DNA from: Bacillota bacterium | GTDB lineage: Bacteria > Bacillota_I > Bacilli_A > Acholeplasmatales > Acholeplasmataceae | DNA: 46,261 bases | Direction of reading: 5' to 3' | Assembly: GCA_018818645.1 (NCBI GenBank) | Contig: JAHIRQ010000100.1 | Coordinates: 1 to 46,261, forward strand | Program-made: the position numbers and the translations under genes | Notes under the pieces: model-generated | The model's input: only the letters and a program-made list of their open reading frames with translations | Database searches by the model: none | What the model was told of the DNA's origin: nothing | Shown here: positions 17,640-38,371 of the stretch, piece after piece | Position numbering within the stretch: the stretch's first letter is position 1 | Layout of the letters: each line of letters begins with the position of its first letter

Positions 17640-17642
17640 ACT

Positions 17643-19166: not shown

Positions 19167-19323
19167 CTTCCTTTCCTTTCTTTTTAAGGAAAATACCCAT
19201 GAAAATGGATATTAAAAGAATGCCAATCAACATGAGTACTTTCCAAATATTTTTGATGACTATTTTTAGTAATTTATAGATCAGTTCTAAGATATTCTTA
19301 AACAGGTTGAAAACTGTATCCAC
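19156..19323 (-). CDS. Small single-TM peptide, major-coat-like candidate
   Basis: A 55-aa frame begins with GTG at 19323 (VDTVFNLFKNILELIYKLLK). An amphipathic helix is followed by a strong TM segment (WKVLMLIGILLISIFMGIF) and a basic tail KKKGKEDDS. Amphipathic helix, TM and a positive C-terminus that would face DNA is the layout of filamentous-phage coat proteins. It starts 7 bp after the 141-aa gene and ends overlapping the 507-aa gene, filling an otherwise empty gap. No strong ribosome site is visible, so coupling to the upstream gene is assumed. A holin-like or accessory membrane peptide is possible. Confidence 0.6.
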   Translation of the reverse strand: MDTVFNLFKNILELIYKLLKIVIKNIWKVLMLIGILLISIFMGIFLKKKGKEDDS

Positions 19324-19330
19324 AAACTTT

Positions 19331-20783: not shown

Positions 20784-21410
20784 TCAAAATATCCTTTTAA
20801 CATAACTCATGTCACTTACCCTGTGAATATATTTTTTACCATCGGGGAATTTTCCATAGAATGTTACACCACCAGAATCACCTTTTATGAGGCAGCTATC
20901 AACATTCTTTTTATCAAGTCCTAAGTGAATCATGTTTAAAAGAGATAGTGTTATTCCATGAGAAATGACAATTATTGTCTTTCCGCAAGATTGATTTACT
21001 AGAACCTCGTTATAAAAAGACGTAAGTCTATCCCAGACCTCACTATTGCTTTCGGCATTACTAAAAGCTTTTGAGTGTAGAGATATTTCATCTGTTATCC
21101 TGTTTTGTTTAAACCACTCAAGAGATTTCCCCATTGCATCCCCTAAAGATAACTGGTTAATTCTATCGTCAATAATAACTTCCTCTGCATTGAGAATTTT
21201 TGCAATAATGAATGCTCCATTTTTCGCTCTTTTCAGTGGAGAACTATATACCAAAATTTCTTTTTCGCCTAGAATTTCTTTTTTTAGTCTCTTCGCTATT
21301 CTTTTGATGTCTTTCAATCCTTTTGGAGTCAAATCCCAATCGGTTCTGGATCCAACCATCTTATTTAAGTGATGGTAGCTTTCTGTATGTTGAATAGTGA
21401 TTATTTTCAC
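20784..21410 (-). CDS. Histidine phosphatase (phosphoglycerate mutase-like)
   Basis: A 208-aa branch-1 histidine phosphatase. The catalytic His is in ITIQHTESYHH (His8), the second His is in VISHGIT near residue 150, and the SSPLKRAKNGA segment supplies the phosphate-binding Arg. The usual RHG is QHT here: the first Arg is replaced by Gln. Some Firmicutes paralogues share this feature, and their substrate is unclear. It is the last gene of the cluster, 268 bp after the methyltransferase, so it may have its own promoter. In a cluster with a kinase and nucleotidyltransferases it could remove a phosphate from an intermediate or act as a resistance step. Substrate unknown. Confidence 0.82.
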   Translation of the reverse strand: MKIITIQHTESYHHLNKMVGSRTDWDLTPKGLKDIKRIAKRLKKEILGEKEILVYSSPLKRAKNGAFIIAKILNAEEVIIDDRINQLSLGDAMGKSLEWFKQNRITDEISLHSKAFSNAESNSEVWDRLTSFYNEVLVNQSCGKTIIVISHGITLSLLNMIHLGLDKKNVDSCLIKGDSGGVTFYGKFPDGKKYIHRVSDMSYVKRIF

Positions 21411-21678
21411 AATATAGCCTCCTTAAAGTTAATTCTCTAAATTAATAGTTTTCTAAAATCAGTATAGTGTGGTTTTTTAGCAATCACTTTCTAACTAATT
21501 ACTATTTACTCCAACATAAAAACACTTCTCAAATGAATTATAGAATCTTTATAGTTGTATTCTAACATTCGATTTTTCCATTATTTATCTATTAAAACAT
21601 ATCTAATAATCATCAATATATACCATTTACTCGTTGATAAATTTATAAATAAAGATTAAGTATATCATGAAATGGACT

Positions 21679-22506
21679 TTAACTTTTTTTACCAATAATA
21701 ACTATCTGGTTCCCCCTACAGGCGCATTCTTCGTTCATAATCAATTTTTTCTCCATTTCATAAATTTTATTAAAGTAATCTGTATCTTCCAAGGCGTTTT
21801 TTAATGATTTTGTTTGTCCATGTAATTGTGTTTCAGAATAACCCGGATAAATACACACTGGAAATCCATGTACATTTATATTTTTAATTTTTATATCCGA
21901 ATATATTTTCTTTAAAATTACTGGAGTAAACATATGCATTTGAGGCATTTCCTTAGTAAATCTTCCCATATGATTGTTAAAAGTTTCTGATGCCAAATCC
22001 AAATTATTAGAAGCAATATTAAAGTATATATTATGATAAAAATTAGGAACGCCACAAACAACATAGCCATTAAGTTTAGTTGTTTTGTTCATTTTTCCAA
22101 TAACAATTTGTGGATTTTCAACAAATCCTAAAACGTTATGAAATGTGAAGGATATATCAACCACAGATTCATCTACCTTCACGGTATCCAGGTTATCTAT
22201 AATTATCTCAACTCTATCTGAGTAACCCCTAGAATTTAATTTTTCTTTTGCCACATCTATCATATCTGATGAAAGATCTATCATAATACCTTTTGCTTTG
22301 GGATACTTTTCTAAAATTTTTAATGTCCATCTTCCTGTTCCTGCTCCAGCATCTAAAAATGTAAATTCCTTATCGGAGTAGTTACTAAGCACTTGCTCAT
22401 CAAAAATATTCCACAGTAACATATCTGATAGTACCCAGTATAGTTGATGATCGACGTCATCATATTCTTTAGCTTTTTCTTTAAAATATTCTTTTACTTC
22501 TCCCAT
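21679..22506 (-). CDS. Class I SAM-dependent methyltransferase
   Basis: A 275-aa Rossmann-fold methyltransferase. Motif I is FLDAGAGTGRW near residue 50, an acidic residue follows at the end of strand 2 (IMIDLSSDMI), and motif IV-like DISFTFHNVLGF lies near residue 118. The acceptor is not deducible; the family covers small molecules and quinone-type substrates. It follows the S66 peptidase by 21 bp with a GGAGAA ribosome site, so it belongs to the same operon. A modifying enzyme of the cluster product is the likely role. Confidence 0.85.
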   Translation of the reverse strand: MGEVKEYFKEKAKEYDDVDHQLYWVLSDMLLWNIFDEQVLSNYSDKEFTFLDAGAGTGRWTLKILEKYPKAKGIMIDLSSDMIDVAKEKLNSRGYSDRVEIIIDNLDTVKVDESVVDISFTFHNVLGFVENPQIVIGKMNKTTKLNGYVVCGVPNFYHNIYFNIASNNLDLASETFNNHMGRFTKEMPQMHMFTPVILKKIYSDIKIKNINVHGFPVCIYPGYSETQLHGQTKSLKNALEDTDYFNKIYEMEKKLIMNEECACRGNQIVIIGKKS

Positions 22507-22527
22507 ACTATTTGGTTCTCCTTTATT

Positions 22528-23502
22528 TTATTTATTAATTATATAGCCTTTATTCTTCAAAATTAGTCTAATGTCATTATTTTTAACACTCATAAAATAT
22601 ACTCCTCCTATTTTGATTGGCAAACAAGGATAAGTGTGGGCAGAATCGAAATTTTTAAATATTGGAACGTCATAATTCTTGAAAAACTGATATATGTCAT
22701 CTCCATAATCTCTAGATTGATCCAAATAATTCTCACATTTACATATTATCAATCCAATAATGGACGAAATTGCACCGCTATTTGCTAAACTCGCTATACA
22801 ACTCTCTACTATTTCTGGCGAAGAAACCGAGTCTTCCAATACTAATATTACTTTTTTAAAGCTGGGTAAATACTCCGATCCCAACAACTTAACAATTGTT
22901 TTTAAATTCCCACCTAAAAGTACACCTGATGCCACACCATCATTTAGACCTATCCACTGATTTTGAAACACTTTTTTGGGCCTTTCATGTTGATTCCAAT
23001 TTATATAATCATTTGTATACACAGTTGGTTTGAAATATTCTATATCTGCATTTTGTGACATGATTATCTGATTAAAGTTATTGTAATTTTGACTCAACAT
23101 AGGTTCGAATTCTCCAAAAGCGGGAAGCAAGGTCATAAAGTGCCATGTTGGTAATTTTATTTTTGCATAAATTGCAAGCAATATCGCTGTAATATCCGAG
23201 TTTCCAATAATGATTTTGGGGTTAATAGTTAATTCAGCATAATCAATTTTGTCCAAAAGGGATGATGAATTTTCTCCTCCAAATGAAGCATAAATAATTT
23301 GGGCATTAGATTTAAAAGCATCATTCAACTCTGTGACTCTTTCGGAGATTGTTCCTGTAGTATGTCCAATTGTCTTATCTAATAGTTTTCCTCTGATTAT
23401 TTTATAACCTTGGGTTTTAAGAAAATTAATTGCTCTTTCTCTTCTTATAACACTATGTGGAACATTTGGTGAAGATGGACTAACAATATAAATGACTTTC
23501 AT
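22528..23502 (-). CDS. S66 LD-carboxypeptidase family, MccF-like serine peptidase
   Basis: A 324-aa S66 family protein. It starts with the family beta strand MKVIYIVSPSSPN. The nucleophile Ser102 is in IIGNSDIT, SFGGENSSSLLD precedes it, the catalytic Glu is in VLEDSVSSPE, and the catalytic His is in AHTYPCLPI. S66 includes murein LD-carboxypeptidases and MccF, which inactivates microcin C-type aminoacyl-nucleotides by cutting the aminoacyl-nucleotide bond. Next to an AsnRS/AspRS-like enzyme and nucleotidyltransferases, an MccF-like immunity or tailoring role is the better fit. I start at the ATG at 23502, where the conserved fold begins; an ATG 11 codons upstream would overlap the preceding gene. 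Confidence 0.85.
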   Translation of the reverse strand: MKVIYIVSPSSPNVPHSVIRRERAINFLKTQGYKIIRGKLLDKTIGHTTGTISERVTELNDAFKSNAQIIYASFGGENSSSLLDKIDYAELTINPKIIIGNSDITAILLAIYAKIKLPTWHFMTLLPAFGEFEPMLSQNYNNFNQIIMSQNADIEYFKPTVYTNDYINWNQHERPKKVFQNQWIGLNDGVASGVLLGGNLKTIVKLLGSEYLPSFKKVILVLEDSVSSPEIVESCIASLANSGAISSIIGLIICKCENYLDQSRDYGDDIYQFFKNYDVPIFKNFDSAHTYPCLPIKIGGVYFMSVKNNDIRLILKNKGYIINK

Positions 23503-23512
23503 TATGCTTGGT

Positions 23513-24526
23513 TCACAGTGGTTGTACTTCGCCATTCACTCGAAGAATGAGTTGTGTATCTCTTATGTCGTTATGATTCAAAACCCAAAGAAGAAATCGT
23601 TCGACTCCCATTCCAAAACCACTAGTTTGAATAGGATATTTATCTTTCATTTTTATATACCACTCATATGGATTACTATCTAGCCCTTGAGATGAAATCG
23701 AATCACAAACATCTCTTCCGGTTAGGCATCTTTCACCGGCCCCTACGACTTCGCCAATTCCGAACAACAAATCAGCACAGAGAGCATTACTCGAATCCAT
23801 ACCACAAGACGCTTGGTAAAACGGCACAGTTAATCGCTTGAAATGAGTTACCCATACAAATCCACCATGCATCTCTATAAGTTTCTTTTCCCCAATGTTT
23901 GTAATGAAAGCATAACCTTCTCTATATTTGATTGCTCCTTCTGTTTCATACAATAGTTTTAACGCTTGTTCAAAACTAATTGTAGGGAATGATTTTAAAG
24001 AAACCATTTTTTTCATATGATCAATAGACTTTGAAAAGGGGATAATATCATCACTCATTTTTTCTATTAGTTTTGTGGTCAAAAATTTTAGATAATTCTC
24101 TACAAGCGTGATTACATCTGATAATTCACCTTTAATTTCCGCCTCACTATGAAAAAACTGATTTAGATGTCGTTCATCAAGTTGCTCTCCTCTAAAAGAA
24201 GGCATAATGTAGTATGTCCCTTTTTCTGTTAAACGACAAGAATACTCTAATAGAAATTGCATCGAATCAGCTAAATATGTCTTGATTCCCGCAATTTCAA
24301 TACCAACAGGTAGAGAATCACTACTTAATCCAATTGGACTTGATATTGAACCTGTAGTAATTGGTAAGAAAACAGATTTGATTCCCTGATCTCTAAAAAA
24401 AGAATGTGTGCAATGATTAATTTCATCACATATTTTGAGTATCAAAGAATACCATTTTGAATCTACTACTTTTAAATAGTCTTCGTTCTTATTTCTTAAA
24501 CTTGGAATCTGGAAATCATCGTTCAT
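23513..24526 (-). CDS. AsnRS/AspRS-like class II synthetase catalytic core without anticodon domain
   Basis: A 337-aa paralogue of asparaginyl/aspartyl-tRNA synthetase. The catalytic motifs are intact: YLADSMQFLLE (AsnRS-like substrate loop), motif 2 FRGEQLDERHLNQF at 111-124 followed by acidic residues, and motif 3 GFGMGVER with Arg near 310. The N-terminal OB-fold that binds the anticodon is absent. Such proteins activate Asp or Asn as the adenylate; the archaeal AS-AR paralogue makes asparagine. Here it could activate an amino acid for transfer to a small molecule. It overlaps its NUDIX neighbour by 11 bp. Amino-acid specificity is inferred from family resemblance. Confidence 0.85.
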   Translation of the reverse strand: MNDDFQIPSLRNKNEDYLKVVDSKWYSLILKICDEINHCTHSFFRDQGIKSVFLPITTGSISSPIGLSSDSLPVGIEIAGIKTYLADSMQFLLEYSCRLTEKGTYYIMPSFRGEQLDERHLNQFFHSEAEIKGELSDVITLVENYLKFLTTKLIEKMSDDIIPFSKSIDHMKKMVSLKSFPTISFEQALKLLYETEGAIKYREGYAFITNIGEKKLIEMHGGFVWVTHFKRLTVPFYQASCGMDSSNALCADLLFGIGEVVGAGERCLTGRDVCDSISSQGLDSNPYEWYIKMKDKYPIQTSGFGMGVERFLLWVLNHNDIRDTQLILRVNGEVQPL

Positions 24527-24986
24527 TATTATTCCCCTCTCTTTTTATGTAATTTAAAACTCTATCAAGCATTTCAAATGCACTTTGATACTTGAACAAT
24601 GTTCGCGCTTCATCTATCGAAAAAAAGGATATTTTACTATCAGGTTCTCCAATTTCTTGAATTTCATCAGGAAAATCTCCTTCCCAGTCAGTAATGACAA
24701 AAATATAAAATAAGACATTTATTTCAGGAACAATTAGTTCTCCTAGAAAAGCTTTATCCAAAATATTAATCCTGTTTTTAAATTCTTCAGACACTTCTCT
24801 AAAAAGCGCATTTACAATATAATCATCACTAGAATTTTTGTCCTTAATTTCTATTGTTCCATTTGGGAAAAAAGCTTCAACATTAAATCCTTTACCTCTA
24901 TCTTCTAAAAGCACTTTGTTGTCTTTGTAGAAACAAAACACAACACCTTCAATAAGCCCATTCTTATATGATCTAGTATCAATCAT
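24516..24986 (-). CDS. NUDIX-like hydrolase
   Basis: A 156-aa protein with NUDIX layout: an N-terminal beta strand pair (GLIEGVVFCFYKDNKVLLED) and a Nudix box represented by FFPNGTIEI and the catalytic helix LFREVSEEF. The box carries an insertion or degeneration between its Gly and the REVSEE helix, so activity is uncertain. The family cleaves nucleoside diphosphates linked to another group. It overlaps the genes on both sides, so it is translated as part of the cluster. Processing of a nucleotide-linked intermediate is a plausible role. Confidence 0.75.
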   Translation of the reverse strand: MIDTRSYKNGLIEGVVFCFYKDNKVLLEDRGKGFNVEAFFPNGTIEIKDKNSSDDYIVNALFREVSEEFKNRINILDKAFLGELIVPEINVLFYIFVITDWEGDFPDEIQEIGEPDSKISFFSIDEARTLFKYQSAFEMLDRVLNYIKREGNNNER

Positions 24987-26079
24987 TTTTTTTAATCTCC
25001 TTAATTATATCCATGAACGATTCATAAATCATGGTATCTATTTTGTATAAATCAGTGTATTCCACAAAATCATATCTAGCTACTGCTAAAGCAATTAATT
25101 CGATACAAACAGTTGAAGCAAGTGGTGGCATCAAATCATAGAATTTATAATCTGAATTTTTAAAGTACTCCTTTATCATAGCAAGTGCTAAACTTATATC
25201 AAAAAAACTTGGTGCCGTTTCAAATCGAGTACTATTTTTTTTATACTTGAAAACGCAAAAAACTAAAATCATTTCAACAACATCTCTAATTGGATTGCTG
25301 AGTGCTGAATTATCAAAATCCAAAATCGATTTCACCTCTTTATCGTTAGTAAATACTAAGTTCCACGGATTAAAATCACCGTGTATTGGGAACAAAATAT
25401 CACTATATCCTTCACGATATGCCTCATCACGAAATGATTCAATTTTATCTACTGCGTATTTGTAATAACTATCAAAATCACAAATGTTAGATACACCTTT
25501 TTCATTTATGCTATCTAATGCAACTTTCAACATTTCTAACGACTTTGAAAAAGAATTAGAAACAGGATAGTAAATACTTTCATTTTTTTTGTAGTAATGC
25601 TCCATTTGCTCATGCAAAATAGCTAATTGATGTGATGCTTTTAAAGCCTCTGTTAAAGACCCATTCCATGTTTCACCCACAATAAAATCTTGCACTAATA
25701 AAAAACTTTCACCTAAACCATAGTCTAATATAGTAAACAATGCTCCTTCAATTGATGGGATTATTTTTGGAACTTTAGATCCATTCTCATATAGACTTTT
25801 CAACATTTGAGTTTGATATACGACAAAGTCTTTTGACGAACAATACCAAGGTATTTCTTTGATAAAAATTAATTGTTTATTATCTAATAAAACAATTGCT
25901 TTTCTCGCAGTTTCAGAACGACGAGTAATCAATATTGCATCTCCACTAACATTAAGAAAAGGAAGCACCACCCATTCTTTCACATTAATGAAACGCTTAC
26001 TAATACACTTTGCGATTACTTCATCAGGTAGCATACCTTGAAATTTGTCAACTTCTTTTTTACTCACTAACTGGGACAT
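24979..26079 (-). CDS. Aminoglycoside phosphotransferase-fold kinase
   Basis: A 366-aa APH/choline-kinase-fold protein. The catalytic loop is HGDFNPWNLVF (Asp base and metal-binding Asn), followed by ILDFDNS with the metal-binding Asp (the DFG equivalent), at about residues 230-265. The family phosphorylates hydroxyls of antibiotics, sugars or choline-like molecules. I start at MSQLVSKKEV (26079), because GGAGGTGATAGAA lies just upstream; the longer start overlaps that site. It overlaps the ATPase gene before it and the NUDIX gene after it. It could phosphorylate a pathway intermediate or protect the producer. Confidence 0.85.
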   Translation of the reverse strand: MSQLVSKKEVDKFQGMLPDEVIAKCISKRFINVKEWVVLPFLNVSGDAILITRRSETARKAIVLLDNKQLIFIKEIPWYCSSKDFVVYQTQMLKSLYENGSKVPKIIPSIEGALFTILDYGLGESFLLVQDFIVGETWNGSLTEALKASHQLAILHEQMEHYYKKNESIYYPVSNSFSKSLEMLKVALDSINEKGVSNICDFDSYYKYAVDKIESFRDEAYREGYSDILFPIHGDFNPWNLVFTNDKEVKSILDFDNSALSNPIRDVVEMILVFCVFKYKKNSTRFETAPSFFDISLALAMIKEYFKNSDYKFYDLMPPLASTVCIELIALAVARYDFVEYTDLYKIDTMIYESFMDIIKEIKKND

Positions 26080-26857
26080 TTCTATCACCTCCAGAACTAA
26101 TAATAATATTTAATAAATCCAGATATTTAGACGCGGTTGAAGACTCTAAATTCGGTTCATTCATATAAGGTAATCCCCTTGATGCCATTTTGCTGACTTG
26201 AGAATCAAATGGAAAAGAGAGTAAGTATTTAATTCCAATTTTTTCACAAAGAACTTTTTTGCTATTTTCCGGAAACAAAACGATATTGTGATGACAGTTA
26301 TCACATTTTACATACGACATATTTTCGACTATTCCTAGAATTGGGATATTGAATCTTTCAATTAATGCAATGCCTCTAATAACATCTTCATAACTGGTTG
26401 AGTGCGGTGTAGTAACAAGGAGAACCTCACCCTTTAAGCTAAAAAATAATTCTTTATGCAAATCCGTTGTTCCGGGTGGCATATCTATTAACAAAATATC
26501 GATATCCCATTTAACTCCAAAGAGTAATTGATACAATGCGCCTTTTAAGTATTGACCAGATAAAAATGTTCCATCAGAGGGTATGCCGAGTAGACCTGAT
26601 GAAGTCAAAGCAATGTTCTTATATCTGGATGGTAAGACTATTACACCTTTCATAATTGGTTTTGTGAAATCAAGTCCTTTCACAAGATTAGGCATACTGG
26701 GTGTGGATAAATCTCCATCAAAAACACCTACTTTGTATCCAAAATTAGATAATGCAAAAGCAAGATTTAAACAGATTGTTGATTTTCCAACTCCGCCTTT
26801 TCCGCTATATACATAAACAACTCTTTTAAACTGTTTTTTATTAGCAAATAGTTCCAC
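26060..26857 (-). CDS. Mrp/NBP35-type P-loop ATPase (Fe-S carrier-like)
   Basis: A 265-aa deviant-Walker ATPase. GKGGVGKST lies at about residues 17-25 (signature Lys and P-loop), VGVFDGDLSTPSMP is switch I-like, and LIDMPPGTTD is the conserved Mrp segment. The VKCDNCHHN pair of cysteines near residue 190 matches the Fe-S binding CxxC of the Mrp/ApbC family. Mrp proteins insert or carry iron-sulfur clusters. No radical SAM or obvious Fe-S enzyme is encoded in the cluster, so its client is unknown; the adjacent nucleotidyltransferase-like proteins are possible partners. It follows the 524-aa gene by 13 bp. Confidence 0.88.
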   Translation of the reverse strand: MELFANKKQFKRVVYVYSGKGGVGKSTICLNLAFALSNFGYKVGVFDGDLSTPSMPNLVKGLDFTKPIMKGVIVLPSRYKNIALTSSGLLGIPSDGTFLSGQYLKGALYQLLFGVKWDIDILLIDMPPGTTDLHKELFFSLKGEVLLVTTPHSTSYEDVIRGIALIERFNIPILGIVENMSYVKCDNCHHNIVLFPENSKKVLCEKIGIKYLLSFPFDSQVSKMASRGLPYMNEPNLESSTASKYLDLLNIIISSGGDRNVPVSE

Positions 26858-26870
26858 CTATTTATAACTC

Positions 26871-28445
26871 CTATCTATTATTTTTAAATGTATCATTTCT
26901 TTGCTGATTCTCAAGTAAACTATATTTGATTTTTTTTAACTGTTTTTTCAATAGTATTCTTAAAGTACTATAATAATCTCTTAAAAACATTGCAAGTTCA
27001 ATAAAAGAATGGTTTAATTTCAGTTTATTAAGCAGCATGTACTCTTTTAAGTTATTCATTGTTTCATCAGAGCAGATTAGTTCATCAATATTGTTAGTAA
27101 AAATATCCTCAAATGTAAAATAATAGCTGTATTGAGTTTGAACATAAAAATCTTCAATAATCTTATTAGAAATATAGTTTTCAAAAACTCTTTTATTTTT
27201 AATCATAAGTTGAATCTCAGGTATATGTAGCAAAACGTTAATATCATATAATGAAGACATTTTTTTCTCATAAAAACTGTTATCTTTTCTAAAAAAACTC
27301 GATAGAGCGCCAAGCTTGGATACAAATGAAATCTCGATTTTATTTACCTTGAGATCTAATCTCACATTTTCACTAGTTTGATATAGTGGTTTCACTGAAA
27401 TAAAGTCATCCGCTCCGAGCACAAGTGAATTACATAAAATTTCAACAACAATCTTAGTTAATTTGCCCGATAAATTAGTATTCACAAAAATACATGAAGA
27501 TTGGAAAACTTTGTTGCGTATAGAAAAAATAATGGTCTCATGTGAATACTTATTAAATAGTTCTGAAGCCATTTGAACTTTTTCATATTCGGTCCCATTT
27601 ACAAAAACAAAGTCTAGATCATAAATGATTCTTTCAATTTCTTTAGTGAAGTATTTGTAAGAATAACTTCCTTTAAGAGCAATGCCTTGAAAATCCTTGG
27701 CCAGCAAACAAAACAGTCCCTCAAAAGTTGCATTTCTAACTTCATTTTTTGAAATTTTGGAATTTAACTCAACTGTAATTGTTTTTTTGTTGTTCCATTT
27801 TATCAAATCATCTGTTTTTGAAATCATATTATTGATAATAGCTTGCTTAACTGATTCGTTGACTAATTCCTTTAACGAACTATAGTGCGTTCTTTTATCA
27901 AATCCAAAGACATATTCTGATATTTTTTGATTGGAACTAGTTAAAAATAAGTAATCAACCAGATCTGATACTTCAATGTATTCATAATCTTGCACTAGAA
28001 ATAAACACTCAATAAGTTTAGCAATCGCTTGTTTTCTTAATGAGTTAAGATTTGATGTTAAATCAAAGTGTTTTAATATCAAAGCATTGAATAACATTCT
28101 TTTTTGCAATACTTCGTTATCTAATAGTAAATCCAAAGAATTAATATCAATAATCTCTAGGTAACGCGAATTAAAAAAAGGAGGATTGTTCACTAAATCT
28201 TGTAATTCTCTTTTTGAGAAACAAGTTATCTCAATGTTCCAAAATCCGTCATTTATGAGGTTTGCAATTTCATTTAGTTTATCCTTATTAAAACAAGTAT
28301 CATTATCTTCCGAAATAACAAAAAGAAATAGACTGTATTTGTTCTTTATTGGACAGAACAAATCAAAAAATAAAAAATCATTATCAAAATTATAGTGAAA
28401 ACCTTCTATCTCTTTAGAAAACCGACTAACAATCTCTTTTATCAT
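26871..28445 (-). CDS. Large protein with nucleotidyltransferase-fold core
   Basis: A 524-aa protein that I recognise only in part. Near residues 255-285 it has LKGSYSYKYFT followed by YDLDFVFVN, the G-S ... D-x-D signature of the polymerase-beta nucleotidyltransferase fold. It also has a possible third acidic residue after a beta strand. The 250 residues before and 180 after are helical and unassigned. The same KGS-x-YK plus D-x-D pattern occurs in the 317-aa neighbour, so the two may be distant paralogues. The ATG overlaps that gene by 20 bp. Transfer of a nucleotide onto a pathway intermediate or carrier is plausible; a toxin-type NTase is the alternative. Confidence 0.65.
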   Translation of the reverse strand: MIKEIVSRFSKEIEGFHYNFDNDFLFFDLFCPIKNKYSLFLFVISEDNDTCFNKDKLNEIANLINDGFWNIEITCFSKRELQDLVNNPPFFNSRYLEIIDINSLDLLLDNEVLQKRMLFNALILKHFDLTSNLNSLRKQAIAKLIECLFLVQDYEYIEVSDLVDYLFLTSSNQKISEYVFGFDKRTHYSSLKELVNESVKQAIINNMISKTDDLIKWNNKKTITVELNSKISKNEVRNATFEGLFCLLAKDFQGIALKGSYSYKYFTKEIERIIYDLDFVFVNGTEYEKVQMASELFNKYSHETIIFSIRNKVFQSSCIFVNTNLSGKLTKIVVEILCNSLVLGADDFISVKPLYQTSENVRLDLKVNKIEISFVSKLGALSSFFRKDNSFYEKKMSSLYDINVLLHIPEIQLMIKNKRVFENYISNKIIEDFYVQTQYSYYFTFEDIFTNNIDELICSDETMNNLKEYMLLNKLKLNHSFIELAMFLRDYYSTLRILLKKQLKKIKYSLLENQQRNDTFKNNR

Positions 28446-29379
28446 ATTTTTTCTGTCCCTTTTTTTTCATATAACGAAGAATTCTTCCTTCTTTGACAAT
28501 GGACGATATTAAAATCAGAGCATTTTTTGAATTTTGCAATATAAGTTCTGTATCACATTGATCCTTTAAATACTCAATATAACGCAACACATTAACATCT
28601 ACATCAAGAAAACTATAAATGCTTTTATTAAATATTTGATCGTAATGTTTATAATATTTTAAATAGTTGATTTGCAAAGTAAAATCTTTTTTAAATTCCT
28701 TAAAAAGAAATTTCTTGAATTTTTTTGTCCGTTTCATATTTGAAAAAATAGCTTTCACTTTTTCAGAATTAAATAATAAATGTAAATCATACAGTGTGTT
28801 AAACACCTTATCTTTATCAGTGAAAACATCTAAAGATAGTGCATTTGTTAAGGAACAAACCTTCTGCGCAATTAATTTCTCCAGGGAATATGTTTTAATT
28901 ATGAATGACTCTAGAATAATAGGATATTTGATTTTTAATACATTTAGGTGCTTTGTCAATATCGACTCAACTTCAAAGTTTACTGTTCCTTTCTTATCGA
29001 ATTTAGTATTGCATAAGCATTCAATTCTAGCAGAGTAATCAGATTCCTCAAACGGTAAATTTACAGACGCACTTTGAAAAACACTATCAATGTCTTTAAG
29101 TAATCGAAAATTTGCTTTTTCAAAAATATCTCTTACATAGTTAATATTATTGTAAAGACTTCTCCGCCTAACTAAAGCAATATCTATATCTCTCGGTAAA
29201 GAAGATATGTTGCACATTTTTTTATAGACAAAACTTCCTTTCACCACAATATGCTTGTGCTTGCTAATAGTCTTAAGGATTAAAAAAAATAGCAAGTCAT
29301 TTATGATTAGTTCTATTGATTGATTTGCTTTTTGAGTTACCAACAATACTAATTCTTTTATTCTTTCATCAATGATCAT
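28426..29379 (-). CDS. AbiEii-like nucleotidyltransferase
   Basis: A 317-aa protein resembling the AbiEii/AbiGii nucleotidyltransferase family. VVKGSFVYKKM near residue 42 and RDIDIALV near residue 62 give the GS and DxD metal site. SLEKLIAQKVCSL followed by the K-x-x-x-x-L-Y-D-L-H-L-L-F stretch is the characteristic later helix region of that family. Family members transfer nucleotides to RNA or protein as toxins, but here the gene overlaps the ABC exporter by 4 bp (ATGA) and the next NTase by 20 bp within a biosynthesis-like operon. No AbiEi-type antitoxin is adjacent. A metabolic nucleotidyl transfer is the favoured inference. Confidence 0.75.
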   Translation of the reverse strand: MIIDERIKELVLLVTQKANQSIELIINDLLFFLILKTISKHKHIVVKGSFVYKKMCNISSLPRDIDIALVRRRSLYNNINYVRDIFEKANFRLLKDIDSVFQSASVNLPFEESDYSARIECLCNTKFDKKGTVNFEVESILTKHLNVLKIKYPIILESFIIKTYSLEKLIAQKVCSLTNALSLDVFTDKDKVFNTLYDLHLLFNSEKVKAIFSNMKRTKKFKKFLFKEFKKDFTLQINYLKYYKHYDQIFNKSIYSFLDVDVNVLRYIEYLKDQCDTELILQNSKNALILISSIVKEGRILRYMKKKGQKKYDKRDC

Positions 29380-31139
29380 ATCTGTTTGCCTTCCAAAAAG
29401 ATGTTGCTTTTTGTAAGATTATATAGCTTTCTATACTTTCCATTCATTTTCATTAACTCGGTGTGATTGCCTTGCTCAATTATCTCTCCCTCATCAAGTA
29501 CATAAATTAAGTCAGCATTTTGAATTGTTGTCAATCTGTGAGCGACGATGATAAAAGTTTTATCTTTGTAGTATTTGAAAACATTATTCATCACTGCTTC
29601 TTCAGTCTTATTATCCAAAGAACTTGTCGCTTCATCCATAAGAAATAATTCCGCATTTTTTAGGAGCATTCTAGCGATTCCAATACGCTGTCTTTCGCCT
29701 CCAGAAATAAGCAAGCCCCCTTCACCAACTATAGTATTCAATCCCAAAGGTAGTTTTTCAATAAAATCCTCTAAACAAGCACAATGGATAGCTTTTTGAA
29801 CCATCTCTTCTGTAGCATTCTTATTCGAGAAAACAATGTTTTCATATATGGTGGTATTAAACAAAACTGTTTCTTGAAATGCTACACTTATTTTTCCCTT
29901 TAAATCGTATCTTGAAGTATTGTTAAGCTCTTTACCGAAAATCTTGATGATTCCTTCTGTCGGTTCATAAAGACCATCGCAAAGTTTTAGAATTGTTGAT
30001 TTTCCACTACCTGTAGTTCCTACAAAAGCACATATTGTGCCAACAGGAACAGAAAAATAGATTTTCTTCAATATCAACCTGCTTTCACTTGAATACTTAA
30101 AAGTAACATTTCTAAAACTCGCCACAGTATGCGAGTTATCAATGATATTAGATTCTTTATACGAATATGATTCATCTTTTTTAGAATTAGTTACAATGCT
30201 TGCACGTTCCTTTGAAGTCTTAGCTTTCTGGTAGTCTAAAAAAATCAATACTAATCCCTGCACTGGAACAATTAGCACTGTACCAAATGTTAAAATAGCG
30301 ACTAGTGATCCAATTGTGATGACTTCGTTGTATACTGAAAAAATGCCAAATCCAAGTGACACTATCAATAATCCTATCAACAACACATTATTTAATGTGT
30401 CCATTTTTAGTTTCAATAACTCAGTCTTGGAATCATTTTGCATCATATTCCCACTTTTTAACTCAAACTCTTCGAGTATATCTTCTTCATTTCTAATTGA
30501 GTGTATGTCTCTAATTCCTCTAATAGCATCAGTACAGTACTGCCACATTACTGTATTTCTTCTTCTGCTCTCTTTTGCAAGTTTCTTGAACCTTCCACTA
30601 ATTAAACTAATAATGATTCCAATCGTTATTGCAATGGGTATCAAAACAAGAGTCATCAAGGGATCTATTTGCCACATAAAAAAAACACTAAAAATAAAAC
30701 TAAACGATGCCTTGCTTATATTAAGTATCGGAGATAAAAATCCTTGAGCGATAAATTCGCTATCCTGCATGATTATTCCAAGCAAGATGCTCGAATCATT
30801 AACATCAAAAAAATCCTGTTTTAATTCAATCATATGACTAAAAAGTAATTTTCTTATATCGTTGGCTATATTTATTTTTAGTCTAGAACAAATATAATTT
30901 TGTACACAAATAAGAAGGTAACTACTTAGTAAACATACTACATACAAAGAACTTAATACGAAAACATGTTTGATAACGTGTTCAGTAACAACAGATAGAC
31001 TATCAATCATTCCTCTCAATATTTGAATTGGGTAAGCAGCTAAGAATGATGAAACAATCGGAAGAAAAAGTATATAAAAAATCTGAAATTGATATTTTTT
31101 AGTGTTAATGTATTTATATTTTCGCTCTGTTTCTTTAAT
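29376..31139 (-). CDS. ABC exporter (fused membrane and ATPase domains) with probable ATT start
   Basis: A half-size ABC exporter of about 587 aa. It has an ABC_membrane domain with six TM segments, then an ATPase with Walker A GTTGSGKST, signature ISGGERQRIG, Walker B LFLMDEATSS and the H-loop in IVAHRLTT. It exports lipids, drugs or peptides, so it is the natural exporter for the cluster product. The first TTG at 31019 would cut TM1. The frame is open upstream and encodes FYILFLPIVSSFLAAYPIQ, a proper TM1. The only site with a ribosome sequence (GGGTGAG, 5 bases away) is ATT at 31139. It is the first gene of the ten-gene operon. Confidence 0.9.
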   Translation of the reverse strand: MKETERKYKYINTKKYQFQIFYILFLPIVSSFLAAYPIQILRGMIDSLSVVTEHVIKHVFVLSSLYVVCLLSSYLLICVQNYICSRLKINIANDIRKLLFSHMIELKQDFFDVNDSSILLGIIMQDSEFIAQGFLSPILNISKASFSFIFSVFFMWQIDPLMTLVLIPIAITIGIIISLISGRFKKLAKESRRRNTVMWQYCTDAIRGIRDIHSIRNEEDILEEFELKSGNMMQNDSKTELLKLKMDTLNNVLLIGLLIVSLGFGIFSVYNEVITIGSLVAILTFGTVLIVPVQGLVLIFLDYQKAKTSKERASIVTNSKKDESYSYKESNIIDNSHTVASFRNVTFKYSSESRLILKKIYFSVPVGTICAFVGTTGSGKSTILKLCDGLYEPTEGIIKIFGKELNNTSRYDLKGKISVAFQETVLFNTTIYENIVFSNKNATEEMVQKAIHCACLEDFIEKLPLGLNTIVGEGGLLISGGERQRIGIARMLLKNAELFLMDEATSSLDNKTEEAVMNNVFKYYKDKTFIIVAHRLTTIQNADLIYVLDEGEIIEQGNHTELMKMNGKYRKLYNLTKSNIFLEGKQI

Positions 31140-31258: not shown

Positions 31259-31297
31259 GTGTATACGCTTTCATTTTATTATATTGTCGTGTATATG
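31259..31297. promoter_or_regulatory. Direct repeats GTGTATA-C/T-G, 30 bp apart, upstream of the cluster
   Basis: GTGTATACG (31259-31267) and GTGTATATG (31289-31297) lie in the gap ahead of the exporter gene, spaced by 30 bp (about three helical turns). They are candidate binding sites for the RRNPP regulator encoded at 31704. A TTGACA (minus strand, 31301-31296) lies beside the second copy, but no -10 at normal spacing is obvious. Confidence 0.4.
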
Positions 31298-31336
31298 TCA
31301 ATTATTATCATATTTTATGTCTATTTTCTTTTTAGT

Positions 31337-31374
31337 AATTCAAAAACCACCAATACTGTGATGGTTTTTGAATT
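31337..31374 (-). terminator. 13-bp perfect hairpin after the peptide gene
   Basis: AATTCAAAAACCA (31337-31349) pairs perfectly with TGGTTTTTGAATT (31362-31374), with a 12-base loop. It lies 26 bp downstream of the stop of the 70-aa peptide gene and before the exporter promoter region. It should separate the peptide transcript from the operon. The T-tract after the stem is weak, so efficiency is uncertain. Confidence 0.6.
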
Positions 31375-31399: not shown

Positions 31400-31612
31400 C
31401 TATAAACCTATCCATTCAGGCATGCCAACATCATCAGAGTATTGTCTAGATACTTTAGTGCTATAATCAAAATCTTTTTGATTAAACTTAGTATCAAACT
31501 CTAAATCTTCGACTAATTCATGTAATTGATGATTAATCTCATTTTTTTTACTGTTAAACATGGCCACACCTCCAATAAAGAATATGAATAAAACAAAAAT
31601 CAGTTTTTTCAT
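31400..31612 (-). CDS. 70-aa secreted-type peptide, pheromone or precursor candidate
   Basis: A small protein with a clear export segment, MKKLIFVLFIFFIGGVAMF. A charged spacer rich in Glu, Asp and Lys follows, then a short C-terminal end, DDVGMPEWIGL. AAAGGAGG lies 7 bases before the ATG. Signal peptide, acidic spacer and a short hydrophobic tail is the layout of PapR/NprX-type propeptides sensed by RRNPP regulators, and such a regulator is encoded divergently 91 bp away. The mature signal would be the last 7-10 residues. It could instead be the substrate peptide for the adjacent biosynthetic operon. Neither role is proven by sequence alone. Confidence 0.7.
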   Translation of the reverse strand: MKKLIFVLFIFFIGGVAMFNSKKNEINHQLHELVEDLEFDTKFNQKDFDYSTKVSRQYSDDVGMPEWIGL

Positions 31613-31703
31613 TTATTGAACCTCCTTTTCTTGTTTTTCTTTAATTTTCGTGTTAAAGTAGAAAAAAGAGTAGAGCACATCTGTCACTTTTTGAGGTGTT
31701 TGT

Positions 31704-32615
31704 ATGAGAAAATTTGACCAATCAAGAGAAATTGCCCTTTTTATAGACAAACTTAGATCTTTTCGCAATATTGCCCAGGAAGATTTTTTGCATGATATTA
31801 TTTCAATGCGTCAATATAGACGATATATGAATGGGGATTCTACCCTTTCATATTTAGTTCTTGATAAGCTTGCCAAAAAACTAGGTTTCAATGCAGAATT
31901 TGTCATTATGGAATTGGAAACAGAAAAAATGAAACAAACTCAATCCGTGAATAATTTTTATAATTCTATTGTTGGAAACGATGTCGATAAATCAAAAGAG
32001 CTTGTTTTGAAAATAGATGAGCGTCATTTAATTGAAGGTAATAATTTGCTTTTATTCCAACACTCAAAGAATATTTTTGATTATAAGCTAGGTAATACTA
32101 GCGAATATGTTACAATTAACCGCACAAAAAAACTGATCGATTTAGATCAGTTAATAAAGAAAAAAGCCCTTTCTACTTCAGAGCTTTTAATATTGATTTC
32201 ATTTTTTCACTTCAAATCTTTCAAAGAGATCAACGTTATTGCTGAAAAATTAGCTTCATATATTGATAACCATGTCACAATCGTTAGTGGTCATAATATT
32301 AGAGTTTTAGCACTGGTTTTAGAAGAACTATCTAGATATTTCAGTATTAATGAAGACTATGAAAACATGTTGTACTATGCCTTGGAAGGCATAAAGTACT
32401 CAACATCTATGAGATCATACTATTTGCTAGACACACTTTATTATTTTGCTGCAGCTGCTTCTCATGAATTAAATCAAATTGACAAACGAAATGATTATTT
32501 GTTCAAGTGTCTGTCTTTGTTATATATGGAAGGAAACTCTGAAAGAATATCCAAGTATAAGTACTTATTTAAAAATAGATTTGATGTTGATATGCAAATT
32601 ACACCAATCGTTTAA
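31704..32615 (+). CDS. RRNPP-type (Rgg/PlcR-like) peptide-responsive regulator
   Basis: A 303-aa protein. Residues 1-65 form an XRE-type HTH of the Rgg/PlcR kind (IDKLRSFRNIAQEDFLHDII, then SMRQYRRYMNGDSTLSYLVL). The rest is all-helical, in TPR-like pairs (EDYENMLYYALEGIKYS; LYYFAAAASHELNQIDKRND), where RRNPP proteins bind a re-imported peptide. GAGGTG precedes the ATG. It is divergent from the 70-aa secreted peptide and 560 bp from the cluster's first gene, so it probably switches the cluster on or off in response to the mature peptide. Import would need an oligopeptide permease encoded elsewhere. Confidence 0.8.
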   Translation: MRKFDQSREIALFIDKLRSFRNIAQEDFLHDIISMRQYRRYMNGDSTLSYLVLDKLAKKLGFNAEFVIMELETEKMKQTQSVNNFYNSIVGNDVDKSKELVLKIDERHLIEGNNLLLFQHSKNIFDYKLGNTSEYVTINRTKKLIDLDQLIKKKALSTSELLILISFFHFKSFKEINVIAEKLASYIDNHVTIVSGHNIRVLALVLEELSRYFSINEDYENMLYYALEGIKYSTSMRSYYLLDTLYYFAAAASHELNQIDKRNDYLFKCLSLLYMEGNSERISKYKYLFKNRFDVDMQITPIV

Positions 32616-32756: not shown

Positions 32757-32789
32757 AAAAACGACCTCAAAAGAGTTGGGGTCGTTTTT
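32757..32789. terminator. Bidirectional rho-independent terminator
   Basis: AAAAACGACC (32757-32766) pairs with GGTCGTTTTT (32780-32789) and is flanked by A-runs and T-runs on both sides, so it can stop transcripts from either side. It lies between the rightward regulator gene and the leftward TIR gene, and it separates the biosynthetic cluster from the defence island. Confidence 0.85.
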
Positions 32790-34217: not shown

Positions 34218-34271
34218 ATATCACTTACCACCTTTTCTTCATTATATAATAATCTTTTCTCATTTTCACTC

Positions 34272-34296
34272 AAATAATTAATACTTATTAGGGGGA
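34272..34296 (+). promoter_or_regulatory. 25-nt leader of the TIR-STAND gene, identical to the SHMT-like leader
   Basis: The 25 bases directly ahead of the TIR-STAND start (from AAATAATTAATACTTATT to AGGGGGA) are repeated without change in inverted orientation at 38204-38228, ahead of the SHMT-like gene. The segment includes the ribosome site AGGGGGA. Five to seven bases separate GGGGG from each start codon. Confidence 0.85.
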
Positions 34297-34299
34297 AAT

Positions 34300-37014
34300 A
34301 TGGAAAAAATTTCTGATATCATTGTTTGTACTGTAGAAAACAGATATTTTGATGTCGCAGTTTCATTTAGAGGATATAATAGGGATATTGAAAAAATTGT
34401 TGAAAGATTATCTGAATCTAAGTTAAAAGTATTCTATGATAAACAATTGGCAAGTCAAACAGTGGGAGACAATCTATTAATAAATTCAGAAGAATATTAT
34501 CTTCAAAAAGCTTATTTTAATATTGTTTTATTTGATAAAGCTTATCTTAACTCTCCTCATACAAGAAGAGAATTCAACTATGCCATTTTAAGAGATCAAA
34601 TTACTCAAGATAGAGATAATACAAAATCATTATTGATATACTATTATTTTGATAATATACCATTTGAAACCAATGAGTATTCTTTTTATCCTTCCAAGTG
34701 CGATTTAGATACTTTTATAACATATGCTATTGAGTATATCAAATCGAAGTTATATAATGTGCCGGTTAAAGCAACTGAAAATGAAGAACGTAATAAAGAA
34801 ATTTTAATTGATATGAACTATATTAATACAATTAGTCATATTAAATCCTTTGATGGATTAATGTCAACCTTGGAAAGAGGAAAAAGTGCTATTATTGATG
34901 GTTTTAGTGGCTCTGGCAAAACAACACTTACTCAAAACTTCATCTCTATTTACCAGAAGGTTTATAATCGATATAATCATATCATTTATCATGAATTTGA
35001 TGATTCGATAGAAACATACGATGAAATATATACTAATCTTTTGAAAAAAATCAATCAAGTGACGTATAAACATTCAACTAAAGAAAATGCTATTCTAACA
35101 GATGAAAATGATGTTAGACTTCAAATTATTAGCAAACTAAAAAATCTTAAAAACGATGAAAATTTAAAAATACTATTAGTTTTAGATAATGTTCATAAAC
35201 TCTTATCCATCAGTGTTTCTGGTCTTGATTTCATTAATGTACTAATCGAAAATCAACAGTGTTTACTAATACATACAATAAATAAAGAGAATGAGATTCT
35301 TGAATTAAATTTCAATAAAGTATGCAGAGTATCAAATAATATTAACTGGGAACAAGAGTATTTTAAGTATAGTTTCAATTTATCAAAAAAAAGAAAAAAA
35401 ACTATTATTAATATTGTGAATCATAATATTAAATATATATCAGTTCTTGAAAGCCTAGTAGACAAAAGCATCATTAATCTTGATGAATTAGAAGAGCTGA
35501 AATCTATGAGTGATGTATTTGATTTGCTATTTATAAAAAATCCATCACTAATGATTGTTCTCACTATTGTGAATACCATTTATGGAGTTTCAAGTAACAG
35601 AGTTATAGAAGTTTTAGAGAAGTTAGGCCGTCCAACTTCTAGTGATGATATAGAATTGTTGATAGGCTTACAATTAATAACGGCTAACGATGGATTATAT
35701 ATATCGCATGATTCAATATCATACTTGATATTAAAGTTCACAATAAACTGCAAAGATGACTTATACTTAGATTTCATTCATGAACTAAAAAACTATTTTT
35801 CTAAGAATCAAACATACTATGATAGTTTATACAAAATTTGCATTCAATCAGATGATTTAAATTTTTTCAGATCATACATAACCAAATATGTCGAGTTTCT
35901 CGGTTCAGAAAACAGATACAATTCATTAGTAAGATTTTATGAAGATTTTATCAAGCATAATAATCGATTTACTTATTTGGAGTTAAGAGCATTAAATATC
36001 ATACTAGATGCTTGTTTCAAAACTCTAAACCTTGTTATTGCCCAAGATATTCTAGAGAAAACTCATATGTATTCTAATACTCTCAATCTATATAATATTA
36101 AACTTCACATACAACGCTATCAATACAATATAGCCCTCAATCTACTATCAAAAGAACTAACAAACAATTTTACTTTTGAGAAAATATCAATTTATTTCAT
36201 ATTAAAAATGCATATGAGATGCGATACAGAATTACTAAATAATTACAGGTTTTTAATTGACTTAGACTTTAGAGTAAAGAATAATATAAAGTTAAATGCT
36301 ATTGAAGATAAATATCATTTTTTAAACTTGCGTAATACAGCCCACCTGCACCGTGATCGTGATATTGCAATTGACAATTTGTTATTATCTAAACAACATT
36401 TTTCTAGTATCCAAGATAAAGACGAATTTCTTTTGGCTACTTGTCAAAACAACTTGGGAATTGCTTATTTATACAAGTATTTGGATACCAAAAAAACAAA
36501 ATTTCTGTCTTTAGCAAGAACTGAACTAATGGCAGCAAAAGAGTATATGCAAGATAATTCTAACGAAGTGTATCAATCCCAATATAACTTATATTTAGTA
36601 GATTATTTTTCAGACACAAATAAAAGAAATTTTGCATTATTAGAAAACAGTTTTAACAAAATCAACAGATTGTTAGAGAATACAAATTTGCATTACGATA
36701 AGATAAAATTTGAAGTTACTCATATGATTGTTAAGTACCTTTATGAAAAGATTAATAAGGTAAACTTAATCTCTATTTTAAAGGAACACCTCAATAACTG
36801 GAATCAGTCCAATATAGATAAAGATCCATGGCTAGAATATATGATTAATTACAATTTAGAAGTTTTAAAGAAAAGTAAGAAGATTAATCGATTTGTTTTT
36901 TCAAAAAAATATATTAAAGAGGGTTATGATGATAATTATGGGTTATACGTTTTAAATGACTCTAATACAAGTGAAATATTTCTATTTGCTGTATCTCCTC
37001 ATTGGAGATATTGA
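34300..37014 (+). CDS. TIR-STAND NTPase with helical-repeat C-terminus
   Basis: A 904-aa immune-type protein. An N-terminal TIR domain covers residues about 15-150: FDVAVSFRGYNRDI, KVFYDKQ and SPHTRREFNYAI, where Glu91 is the candidate NADase catalytic residue. A NACHT/STAND NTPase domain follows, with Walker A GFSGSGKTTL at 201-210 and Walker B LLVLDNVHK at 292-300. The C-terminal 450 residues are helical and TPR-like (LATCQNNLGIAYLYKYLD), presumably the sensor. STAND proteins oligomerise on recognising a phage molecule; a TIR effector would then destroy NAD or make a signal. Its 3' end overlaps the convergent SHMT-like gene by 16 bp, and the two genes share a 25-nt leader. Confidence 0.88.
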   Translation: MEKISDIIVCTVENRYFDVAVSFRGYNRDIEKIVERLSESKLKVFYDKQLASQTVGDNLLINSEEYYLQKAYFNIVLFDKAYLNSPHTRREFNYAILRDQITQDRDNTKSLLIYYYFDNIPFETNEYSFYPSKCDLDTFITYAIEYIKSKLYNVPVKATENEERNKEILIDMNYINTISHIKSFDGLMSTLERGKSAIIDGFSGSGKTTLTQNFISIYQKVYNRYNHIIYHEFDDSIETYDEIYTNLLKKINQVTYKHSTKENAILTDENDVRLQIISKLKNLKNDENLKILLVLDNVHKLLSISVSGLDFINVLIENQQCLLIHTINKENEILELNFNKVCRVSNNINWEQEYFKYSFNLSKKRKKTIINIVNHNIKYISVLESLVDKSIINLDELEELKSMSDVFDLLFIKNPSLMIVLTIVNTIYGVSSNRVIEVLEKLGRPTSSDDIELLIGLQLITANDGLYISHDSISYLILKFTINCKDDLYLDFIHELKNYFSKNQTYYDSLYKICIQSDDLNFFRSYITKYVEFLGSENRYNSLVRFYEDFIKHNNRFTYLELRALNIILDACFKTLNLVIAQDILEKTHMYSNTLNLYNIKLHIQRYQYNIALNLLSKELTNNFTFEKISIYFILKMHMRCDTELLNNYRFLIDLDFRVKNNIKLNAIEDKYHFLNLRNTAHLHRDRDIAIDNLLLSKQHFSSIQDKDEFLLATCQNNLGIAYLYKYLDTKKTKFLSLARTELMAAKEYMQDNSNEVYQSQYNLYLVDYFSDTNKRNFALLENSFNKINRLLENTNLHYDKIKFEVTHMIVKYLYEKINKVNLISILKEHLNNWNQSNIDKDPWLEYMINYNLEVLKKSKKINRFVFSKKYIKEGYDDNYGLYVLNDSNTSEIFLFAVSPHWRY

Positions 37015-38198
37015 GATAATATCTTTGATATTTTATTGTCATTATCAATATGATTTAATAGACTCTCATGAAATATCTCAATAATCTCTTCAAAATCAGA
37101 TTTTGTAATTGATAGACAAGCAATTGTCAAGAATCCAATTCTTATGCCTGAAGTAATAAATGGAGATTTAATATCTCCTGGAATCAAATTCCGATTAACT
37201 AGAATGTTATTTTTAGCAAGTCGTTCTTCAGCTTCTTTCCCAGAAATATTCACTCTTGATAAATCCATTATTAAGAAGTGTAAATCACTGCCATCTGTAA
37301 TAAAATCAAATCCTAACTTCTTCATTTTTTTATAAAAGATATCTTTATATAGGAGTATATCTGTAACAAATTTTCTAATATCCATCTTCAATAGTTCATC
37401 AAACATTACAACTTTTGCAATAATATCACTGAGTTTAGGAGCACCTTGTGTTATTGGGAAAATTGATTTCAAAACTGATTGATGATATTCTTTCTTATAA
37501 AAAATTAGTCCGCCACGTATTCCACGTGTAGTTTTATGTGTTGTCATTGTTATGAAATCAGCATGATCAAATGGAGAGATATGTAATCCTGTTGCAATAT
37601 ATACGGCAGTGTGAGATATATCAGCTAGTAGCAGACAATCATATCTTTTAGCAATTCGAGAAATTTTCTCATAGTCAATCATTCTTGGATAAGAACTAGA
37701 ACCAGCAATAATTAGTTTCGGCTTATACTTTTCACATTTCATCTCCATTTCCTCATAATCAATTTCACTATTTACGTTCAATGAATAGGTTACCAGATTG
37801 TAAAATTTCTTAATGTAATGATCATGAGAAACATGCCCACCAGCACTAGTTGTCATAGATAAAACATAGTCATCTTTGTTCAAAATAGCATTGTACACTA
37901 TTTGATTAGCCTGAGTTCCTGAATATGGCTCCAAAGTTACTTTATATGTGTTAGACGAAATATTGAAAAACTTCTTAGCCAAACTTTCACCTATTATTTC
38001 TAGGTCATCAATGCCCTTTGACTTTGGGAAATATCTTTTACCAACGTGTCCTTCAAAGGGACTATAGTTATAATACTCTGATTGAGTATCTAAGACGTTT
38101 CGAAAAGGTATACTTGAACTAGCAATCATGTTCAAATTTTGTTTAATAATGCTTTTCTCATTTTCTAATATGTTATAAATTGTTTTAGTATAATCCAT
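36999..38198 (-). CDS. Serine hydroxymethyltransferase-like PLP enzyme, defence-associated
   Basis: A 399-aa fold-type I PLP enzyme of the SHMT/GlyA family. VGKRYFP follows the N-terminal helix, PYSGTQAN (91-98) is the SHMT cofactor loop, GGHVSHD is next, LADISH (191-196) holds the PLP-binding Asp and His, THKTTRG (220-226) holds the Schiff-base Lys222, and SGIRIGF near the end holds the substrate Arg. It is about 15 residues shorter than housekeeping GlyA and diverges around the Glu/Tyr region (SPFEGHVG instead of YAEGYPG). It is tail-to-tail with the TIR-STAND gene, overlapping 16 bp, and has the same 25-nt leader. A stand-alone housekeeping role is unlikely; a helper or antidote for the TIR-STAND protein is inferred. 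Confidence 0.85.
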   Translation of the reverse strand: MDYTKTIYNILENEKSIIKQNLNMIASSSIPFRNVLDTQSEYYNYSPFEGHVGKRYFPKSKGIDDLEIIGESLAKKFFNISSNTYKVTLEPYSGTQANQIVYNAILNKDDYVLSMTTSAGGHVSHDHYIKKFYNLVTYSLNVNSEIDYEEMEMKCEKYKPKLIIAGSSSYPRMIDYEKISRIAKRYDCLLLADISHTAVYIATGLHISPFDHADFITMTTHKTTRGIRGGLIFYKKEYHQSVLKSIFPITQGAPKLSDIIAKVVMFDELLKMDIRKFVTDILLYKDIFYKKMKKLGFDFITDGSDLHFLIMDLSRVNISGKEAEERLAKNNILVNRNLIPGDIKSPFITSGIRIGFLTIACLSITKSDFEEIIEIFHESLLNHIDNDNKISKILSQYLQ

Positions 38199-38228: not shown

Positions 38229-38371
38229 TACCCAAATATAGATATTTTTATATTGATAAATCAACGTTATGTAAATCATTAAATGATCAAATACTATTGA
38301 TTGTTTTCTTTTAGTGTATCATGTTTTGTTACAATTAAAAAGGACAGAAATGTCACAAAAGGAGAAATAAC

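Follow-up and report, generated by a model that had tools for sequence, protein, structure and literature searches.

A putative peptide pheromone and RRNPP-type receptor beside a biosynthesis and export operon in the Acholeplasmataceae

Genes and features at the locus

The window examined in this study (the whole stretch of 46,261 nucleotides, contig JAHIRQ010000100.1 of assembly GCA_018818645.1, from a member of the Acholeplasmataceae with a host genome of 2.23 Mb in 194 contigs) contains a small propeptide gene and, starting 91 bp away on the opposite strand, the gene of a regulator (Table 1). The original prediction had described a 70-aa export-type peptide divergent from a regulator, and both ORFs were recovered at the positions given here. 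The pair is not a chance arrangement of reading frames, since an orthologous pair is found in Acholeplasma oculi (regulator 77% identical, collinear peptide with the tail YSDDVGMSEWVG), further pairs occur in other genera, and dozens of more distant pairs have the divergent layout, the tail motif and the operator in common.

Behind the peptide gene lies a putative target operon that opens with an ABC exporter. The exporter frame is open up to an ATT codon at 31139, past the TTG at 31019; translation may start at this ATT, or the sequence may contain an error. The alignment with the exporter of genome G028 begins at residue 6 of the extended frame. The sequence GGGTGAG was observed ahead of the ATT codon, upstream of the first ATG, GTG or TTG. 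The remaining genes encode two nucleotidyltransferase-like proteins, an Mrp/ParA NTPase, an APH-like kinase, a NUDIX-like protein, a class II tRNA-synthetase-like protein, an S66 peptidase, a methyltransferase and a histidine phosphatase; the product of the operon (20784-31139) may be a peptide- or aminoacyl-nucleotide, with self-immunity of the S66 type. The S66 peptidase is of the MccF/LD-carboxypeptidase family, and the tRNA-synthetase-like protein has no obvious anticodon domain. The hairpin between peptide gene and operon, a possible terminator or attenuator judging from its sequence, is not followed by a U-tract.

Beside the regulator, at 32789-37014, a TIR-like protein, a membrane protein and a large TIR/NTPase-like protein were noted by eye, and these are possible defence genes. 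The window further contains, at 1697-19756 and 38372-39268, two recombinase-like genes, a replication-initiator-like gene, genes of large secreted or membrane proteins and another integrase, which together suggest an integrative mobile element that carries the cluster.

Table 1. Features of the locus, with repeat precursors from related loci.
Feature	Positions	Strand	Basis or description
Propeptide gene, 70 aa	31400..31612	-	ORF with Shine-Dalgarno AAGGAGG; orthologues in A. oculi, G029, G034 and G028
Predicted pheromone region DDVGMPEWIGL, C-terminal residues 60-70	31403..31435	-	Top orthologue conservation; motif repeated in relatives' precursors
RRNPP-type receptor/transcription regulator (predicted), 303 aa	31704..32615	+	AlphaFold2 model; PDB matches; family of relatives
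Predicted operator GTGACAGATGTGCTCT	31672..31687	-	Between the divergent genes, abutting the peptide promoter -35; homologous 16-bp site in 43/43 intergenic regions
Predicted peptide-gene -10, GAAAAT, weak	31644..31649	-	22 nt after the operator, spacing as in relatives
Hairpin between peptide gene and operon	31338..31373	-	TTCAAAAACCAYCA...TGRTGGTTTTTGAA, read from sequence
Operon promoter element (predicted) TTGACATATACACGACAATATAAT	31278..31301	-	GACA half-sites, -10 TATAAT
ABC exporter, first gene of the operon	29376..31139	-	44% identical to the G028 exporter across 576 aa
Remaining genes of the putative target operon	20784..29379	-	Same strand; genes mostly overlapping or abutting
Candidate second operator GTGACATTTCTGTCCT	38341..38356	-	TACACT 22 nt downstream; upstream of SHMT-like gene
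SHMT-like PLP enzyme	36999..38198	-	Pfam SHMT E 6e-91; behind the candidate operator
Repeat precursor, host genome locus L003			5 copies of GFDGNDAPDWVTL
Repeat precursor, locus L014			8 copies of DFHNSGNPEYEEL
Repeat precursor, locus L027			6 copies of DFDDSGFPEFVRI
Repeat precursor, locus L067			9 copies of DFDDRDEPEFINI
Repeat precursor, locus L050			7 copies of DFDDCGEPEFVHL

Predicted fold of the regulator

Pfam identifies a sub-threshold HTH alone in the window regulator and gives no TPR match, so the earlier description of this protein as an HTH-TPR regulator rests on the structure model, which sustains it, and not on Pfam. The AlphaFold2 model, computed with an alignment of 38 relatives, is all-helical (pLDDT 93, pTM 0.85); with its 303 residues, N-terminal HTH and C-terminal TPR-type helical repeats, it has the size and domain order described for RRNPP receptors (250-500 aa, HTH followed by TPR). 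Foldseek returned 35 matches to solved structures at E<=1e-3, all of them RRNPP-type regulators (PlcR, ComR at E 2e-6, PrgX, a streptococcal NrpR and a Listeria regulator), with Rgg2/Rgg3 next in the list. With a second aligner, the PlcR-PapR complex (2qfc) ranked first (Z 17.5 over 276 residues), and Rgg scored Z 14-15. TPR proteins generally, such as LGN and Rap, also score in the list of structure matches, and the argument is therefore carried by the full-length HTH-plus-TPR matches. A sequence search of the PDB with the regulator yielded weak matches only, including ComR at E 0.06, so the fold claim rests on the fold search; Pfam RNPP_C matched weakly in two of the 38 family members. The predicted fold of the regulator is supported as that of RRNPP receptors.

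The propeptide and its tail

The propeptide (MKKLIFVLFIFFIGGVAMFNSKKNEINHQLHELVEDLEFDTKFNQKDFDYSTKVSRQYSDDVGMPEWIGL), whose ATG is preceded by the AAGGAGG at a distance of 8 nt, is built as a hydrophobic export-type N-terminus, an acidic middle and a pheromone-like tail. It begins MKKLIFVLFIFFIGG, with MKK and a hydrophobic run (a simple hydrophobic-run test detected such a run in 50 of 60 loci), and it ends DDVGMPEWIGL. At 70 aa and 91 bp from the regulator, it falls within the size range given for adjacent RRNPP propeptides (10-100 aa).

The tails of the window clade are SDDVGMPEWIGL in the window, SDDVGMSEWVG in A. oculi, SDAIGDLEWVGEV in G029, ADAVGLPEWIGIY in G034 and KKSGLPEWVETFA in G028. 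In a comparison of four orthologues, conservation is highest in the tail (58% mean pairwise identity), followed by the acidic segment (52%), and lowest in the spacer at residues 23-36 (14%). Identity to the peptide of G028, which is more distant, is 35% for the tail and 9% for the acidic segment. A tail conserved over the spacer favours the original prediction that the C-terminal residues are a pheromone, a reading also supported by the repetition of the motif up to nine times in relatives and by the RRNPP-receptor predicted fold. The mature pheromone would be a short piece of the tail around GMPEWI.

Relatives across the family and class

Two further copies of the regulator, 36% and 30% identical, were found in the host genome. 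Of 20 congeneric genomes, 19 contain relatives, as do 45 of the 88 genomes from the family and, in a sample drawn across the class, 62 of 395; among the family genomes, no relative occurs in the reduced genomes of genus group g11, and collections of phages, plasmids and viral contigs gave no match. Comparison of approximately 60 loci, drawn from Acholeplasmataceae, Izemoplasmatales and further members of this class, showed a divergent layout in most, with start codons about 85-117 bp apart, and most of the regulators examined face a small ORF with a Shine-Dalgarno sequence and an export-type start. Some of the 60 loci have no recognisable peptide.

In most relatives, the propeptide contains a motif resembling D-F-x-x-S-G-x-P-E-(W/F/L/I)-(V/I), which DDVGMPEWIGL fits. 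This motif is repeated in tandem, in 2-9 copies, in about 25 of the 60 loci (examples in Table 1), as expected of a multi-copy pheromone precursor, and single-copy precursors carry it at their end (VDFENSGEPEWVTR, VDFEDSGDPEFVTS). Many relatives have precursors of more than 100 aa. A loose tail regular expression applied to all propeptides also matched 50% of shuffled controls and was dropped; the motif claim rests on identical repeats and on the orthologue alignment.

The peptide of a gyrA-linked subfamily has no clear export segment. The paralogues concerned (L002, L004, L005, L007) face an ORF of 56-61 aa with the motif KFSDMGMPDII near the N-terminus, and this ORF possibly encodes a leaderless signal.

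Operator and promoters

A 16-bp pseudo-palindrome was found in every aligned intergenic region, with the consensus AGGACATATACGCCCT, invariant positions 3, 5, 12 and 16, and a mean match of 13.6 versus 8.4 in shuffled regions; in some regions it is a perfect palindrome (AGGGCGTATACGCCCT and ACGACATATATGTCGT). In relatives as in the window, the predicted operator ends 22 nt before the peptide -10 and therefore abuts the -35, which is the geometry of a class-II activator. The location of the operator just upstream of the regulator start codon also suggests that the regulator may repress its own gene. The window regulator has a variant of its own, GTGACAGATGTGCTCT, and a pattern search of the host genome, the method behind the genome-wide operator counts, gave a single exact match to this window-type pattern.

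Away from propeptide promoters, 12 of 20 operator sites have TAnnnT at exactly offset 22, compared to a background of 3% and to 0-4 at neighbouring offsets, and the 20 sites are not all independent because some are orthologous promoters in related genomes. The other promoters with the operator at identical spacing in relatives form a putative regulon, the evidence for which comes largely from paralogues of the window regulator. In five genomes the family operator precedes an SPFH/Band-7 gene (L128, L127, L129, L130, L133; site at 1501), which suggests a conserved target of the rlmI-linked paralogue. No clear target gene could be assigned to an exact window-type site at another place in G034 (724268) or to a one-mismatch site in G028. 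Within the window, the second operator is a candidate only, because 10% of shuffled windows reach its score; the SHMT-like gene behind it is a possible further target.

The adjacent operon and alternative explanations

The original prediction held that the pheromone controls the biosynthetic cluster, and the support for this part is indirect. The 24-bp element in front of the operon is unique in the host genome and in A. oculi and precedes different cargo in each; its core (TTGACANATANNNGACANTATAAT) occurs once per genome even when two mismatches are allowed, and its GACA half-sites are 22 and 11 bp apart in the host and A. oculi. About 68 bp between peptide gene and cargo are common to the two genomes (score 57 versus a shuffled maximum of 40 in 500). 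Against this, the element scores -0.8 as an operator and is not a full one; any action of the regulator at this place is putative and might be repressive.

Modules of the window type were found in five genomes, which belong to four genera, and their neighbours differ. In A. oculi the cargo consists of a secreted protein, a 153-aa protein and an FtsX-type ABC transporter (assignment to a lactococcin-972 type cassette was rejected, the secreted protein being unnamed by Pfam or NCBIfam). In G029 a C39-type bacteriocin exporter lies in line behind the peptide gene, and in G028 an in-line operon contains nucleotidyltransferase-like genes, an oxidoreductase, a thymidylate-kinase-like protein and an ABC exporter. 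A CRISPR-like array with the repeat LLDSKNYEGNTT was seen in G028 beside a Cas2-like gene (L112:1802-2908). The neighbours in G034 are helicase-like genes; in this genome an insertion with an IS91-like transposase divides the gene of the orthologous regulator, and the peptide gene is intact (L090:7845-10578).

The alternative that survives best is a pheromone pair whose control is limited to itself and perhaps other genes, and which stands beside the operon through chance insertion in a mobile element. The incomplete operator at the cargo promoter, the hairpin between peptide gene and operon, and the helicase-like neighbours in G034 all suit this explanation, which we nevertheless consider unlikely, given that the cargo element is kept before two unrelated cargos and is unique in both genomes, that G028 and G029 have their cargo in line directly behind the peptide gene, and that biosynthesis or export genes form the cargo in four of the five genomes. 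Control of the adjacent operon by the regulator is, on these sequence comparisons, likely.

Far less probable is that the 70-aa peptide is the core precursor of a modified peptide made by the adjacent cluster, with the divergent regulator an ordinary cluster regulator; the original prediction had mentioned the peptide as cluster substrate as its own alternative. The peptide gene does adjoin the cluster on the same strand, and a comparable layout is seen in G028, where a related ABC exporter is accompanied by a nucleotidyltransferase-like gene. The substrate reading is disfavoured because the cargo next to the orthologous peptide and regulator is unrelated in A. oculi and in G029; in addition, distant relatives retain the pair, the motif and the operator despite other neighbours, and the peptide gene has its own predicted promoter carrying the family operator. 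Least probable of all is an antimicrobial or toxin-like peptide whose production the regulator controls without pheromone sensing: the peptide is short and of export type with a hydrophobic start, and ABC exporters, one with a C39 peptidase domain, are often adjacent, but a single acidic motif in tandem repeats, conserved from Acholeplasma to Izemoplasma, suits a signal better, the receptor fold is one whose known members bind such peptides, and the propeptide has no double-glycine leader.

A model of the pheromone circuit and its implications

In the preferred reading, to which we give a probability of approximately 0.8, the pair works as an RRNPP-type quorum-sensing module, feeds back positively on itself and also controls the adjacent operon; the central element of this reading, that peptide and regulator are pheromone and receptor, is very likely. 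From the computed features (ORFs, predicted fold, tail conservation, operator, spacing and the common cargo-promoter element), we infer the following course of export, processing, import, peptide binding and regulation. The propeptide would leave the cell by way of its hydrophobic N-terminus and then be trimmed extracellularly, so that the short pheromone is freed from the tail around GMPEWI; an oligopeptide permease would re-import this pheromone. The original prediction had proposed looking for such a permease, and the host genome encodes four SBP_bac_5 proteins, one of them followed by two permease domains; these genes would offer a route for re-import. The pheromone would be bound by the regulator in its TPR-like domain, and the regulator dimer would bind the operator beside the -35 and activate the peptide gene, resulting in positive feedback. 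The operon promoter at 31278-31301 would be a further target of the regulator, the SHMT-like gene possibly another, and the product would thus be made when the same strain is dense. The operon, which the pair probably switches on, would make and export a small molecule; if so, the candidate peptides provide a handle for turning on a silent biosynthetic cluster.

With somewhat less assurance than for control of the operon, we lean towards a broader view in which these systems form an unrecognised branch of quorum sensing, with its own receptor subfamily, motif, repeat precursors and 16-bp operator, throughout Acholeplasmatales, Izemoplasmatales and relatives in the class, and in which a mobile version, the one seen in the window, fronts different biosynthesis and export cassettes across genera as a swappable density switch. 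If this is correct, the wall-less bacteria of the group signal to one another by peptides, and the pheromones, receptors and target promoters involved can be predicted. The repeats show the candidate peptides directly, and the claim is therefore cheap to test.

Comparison with known systems

RRNPP systems as such are already known. RRNPP receptor-propeptide systems have been predicted beside 196 biosynthetic gene clusters, which they probably control (PMC10075063), and the adjacency of receptor, propeptide and biosynthetic cluster is shared with the window. That search required a match to a TPR HMM and propeptides of 10-100 aa, and its text makes no mention of Mollicutes or Tenericutes (PMC10075063). 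A tool of this kind would probably miss the present systems because it needs the TPR HMM and propeptides of at most 100 aa; the TPR-profile step of RRNPP_detector would pass over the window regulator, which has no Pfam TPR match. The literature searched contained no paper with both 'Mollicutes' and 'RRNPP', and as far as it shows, the receptor subfamily, host group, operator and motif appear to be new.

Fold class is shared with Rgg-SHP and ComR-ComS of streptococci, and Rgg and SHP genes can also be divergent. The SHP is short and hydrophobic and exported by PptAB, whereas the window propeptide has 70 aa, an acidic middle and an acidic tail motif. SHP and ComS have short precursors that are exported otherwise than by Sec and in which repeats were not found (PMC9765709), while repeats are common in the relatives described here. 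Tandem copies of the mature pheromone are found in Rap-Phr, NprR-NprX and AimR-AimP, up to six (PMC9765709) or up to eight (PMC11343458), and duplicated pheromones also occur in PlcR systems (PMC9765709, PMC11343458); the repeats therefore represent a known device in a new lineage, here in about 25 of 60 loci, where the copy number reaches nine and a single motif is shared among several families of the class. Rap, unlike the window regulator, has no HTH.

PlcR-PapR of the Bacillus cereus group provides the best structural match, at about 15% sequence identity. It combines an HTH-TPR activator with a Sec-type propeptide that carries a C-terminal pheromone, an arrangement predicted here too. PapR7 is ADLPFEF (PMC6568020), and both it and the window tail have Pro beside acidic and aromatic residues, which is a resemblance only. 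In PlcR systems the propeptide gene lies immediately downstream of the receptor (PMC9765709) on the same strand, while the genes here and in relatives are divergent. A further similarity is the palindromic PlcR box, which is found in many promoters (PMC2464732); the operator of the present family is of the AGGACATATACGCCCT type, unlike that of PlcR, and multi-copy precursors are frequent in this family.
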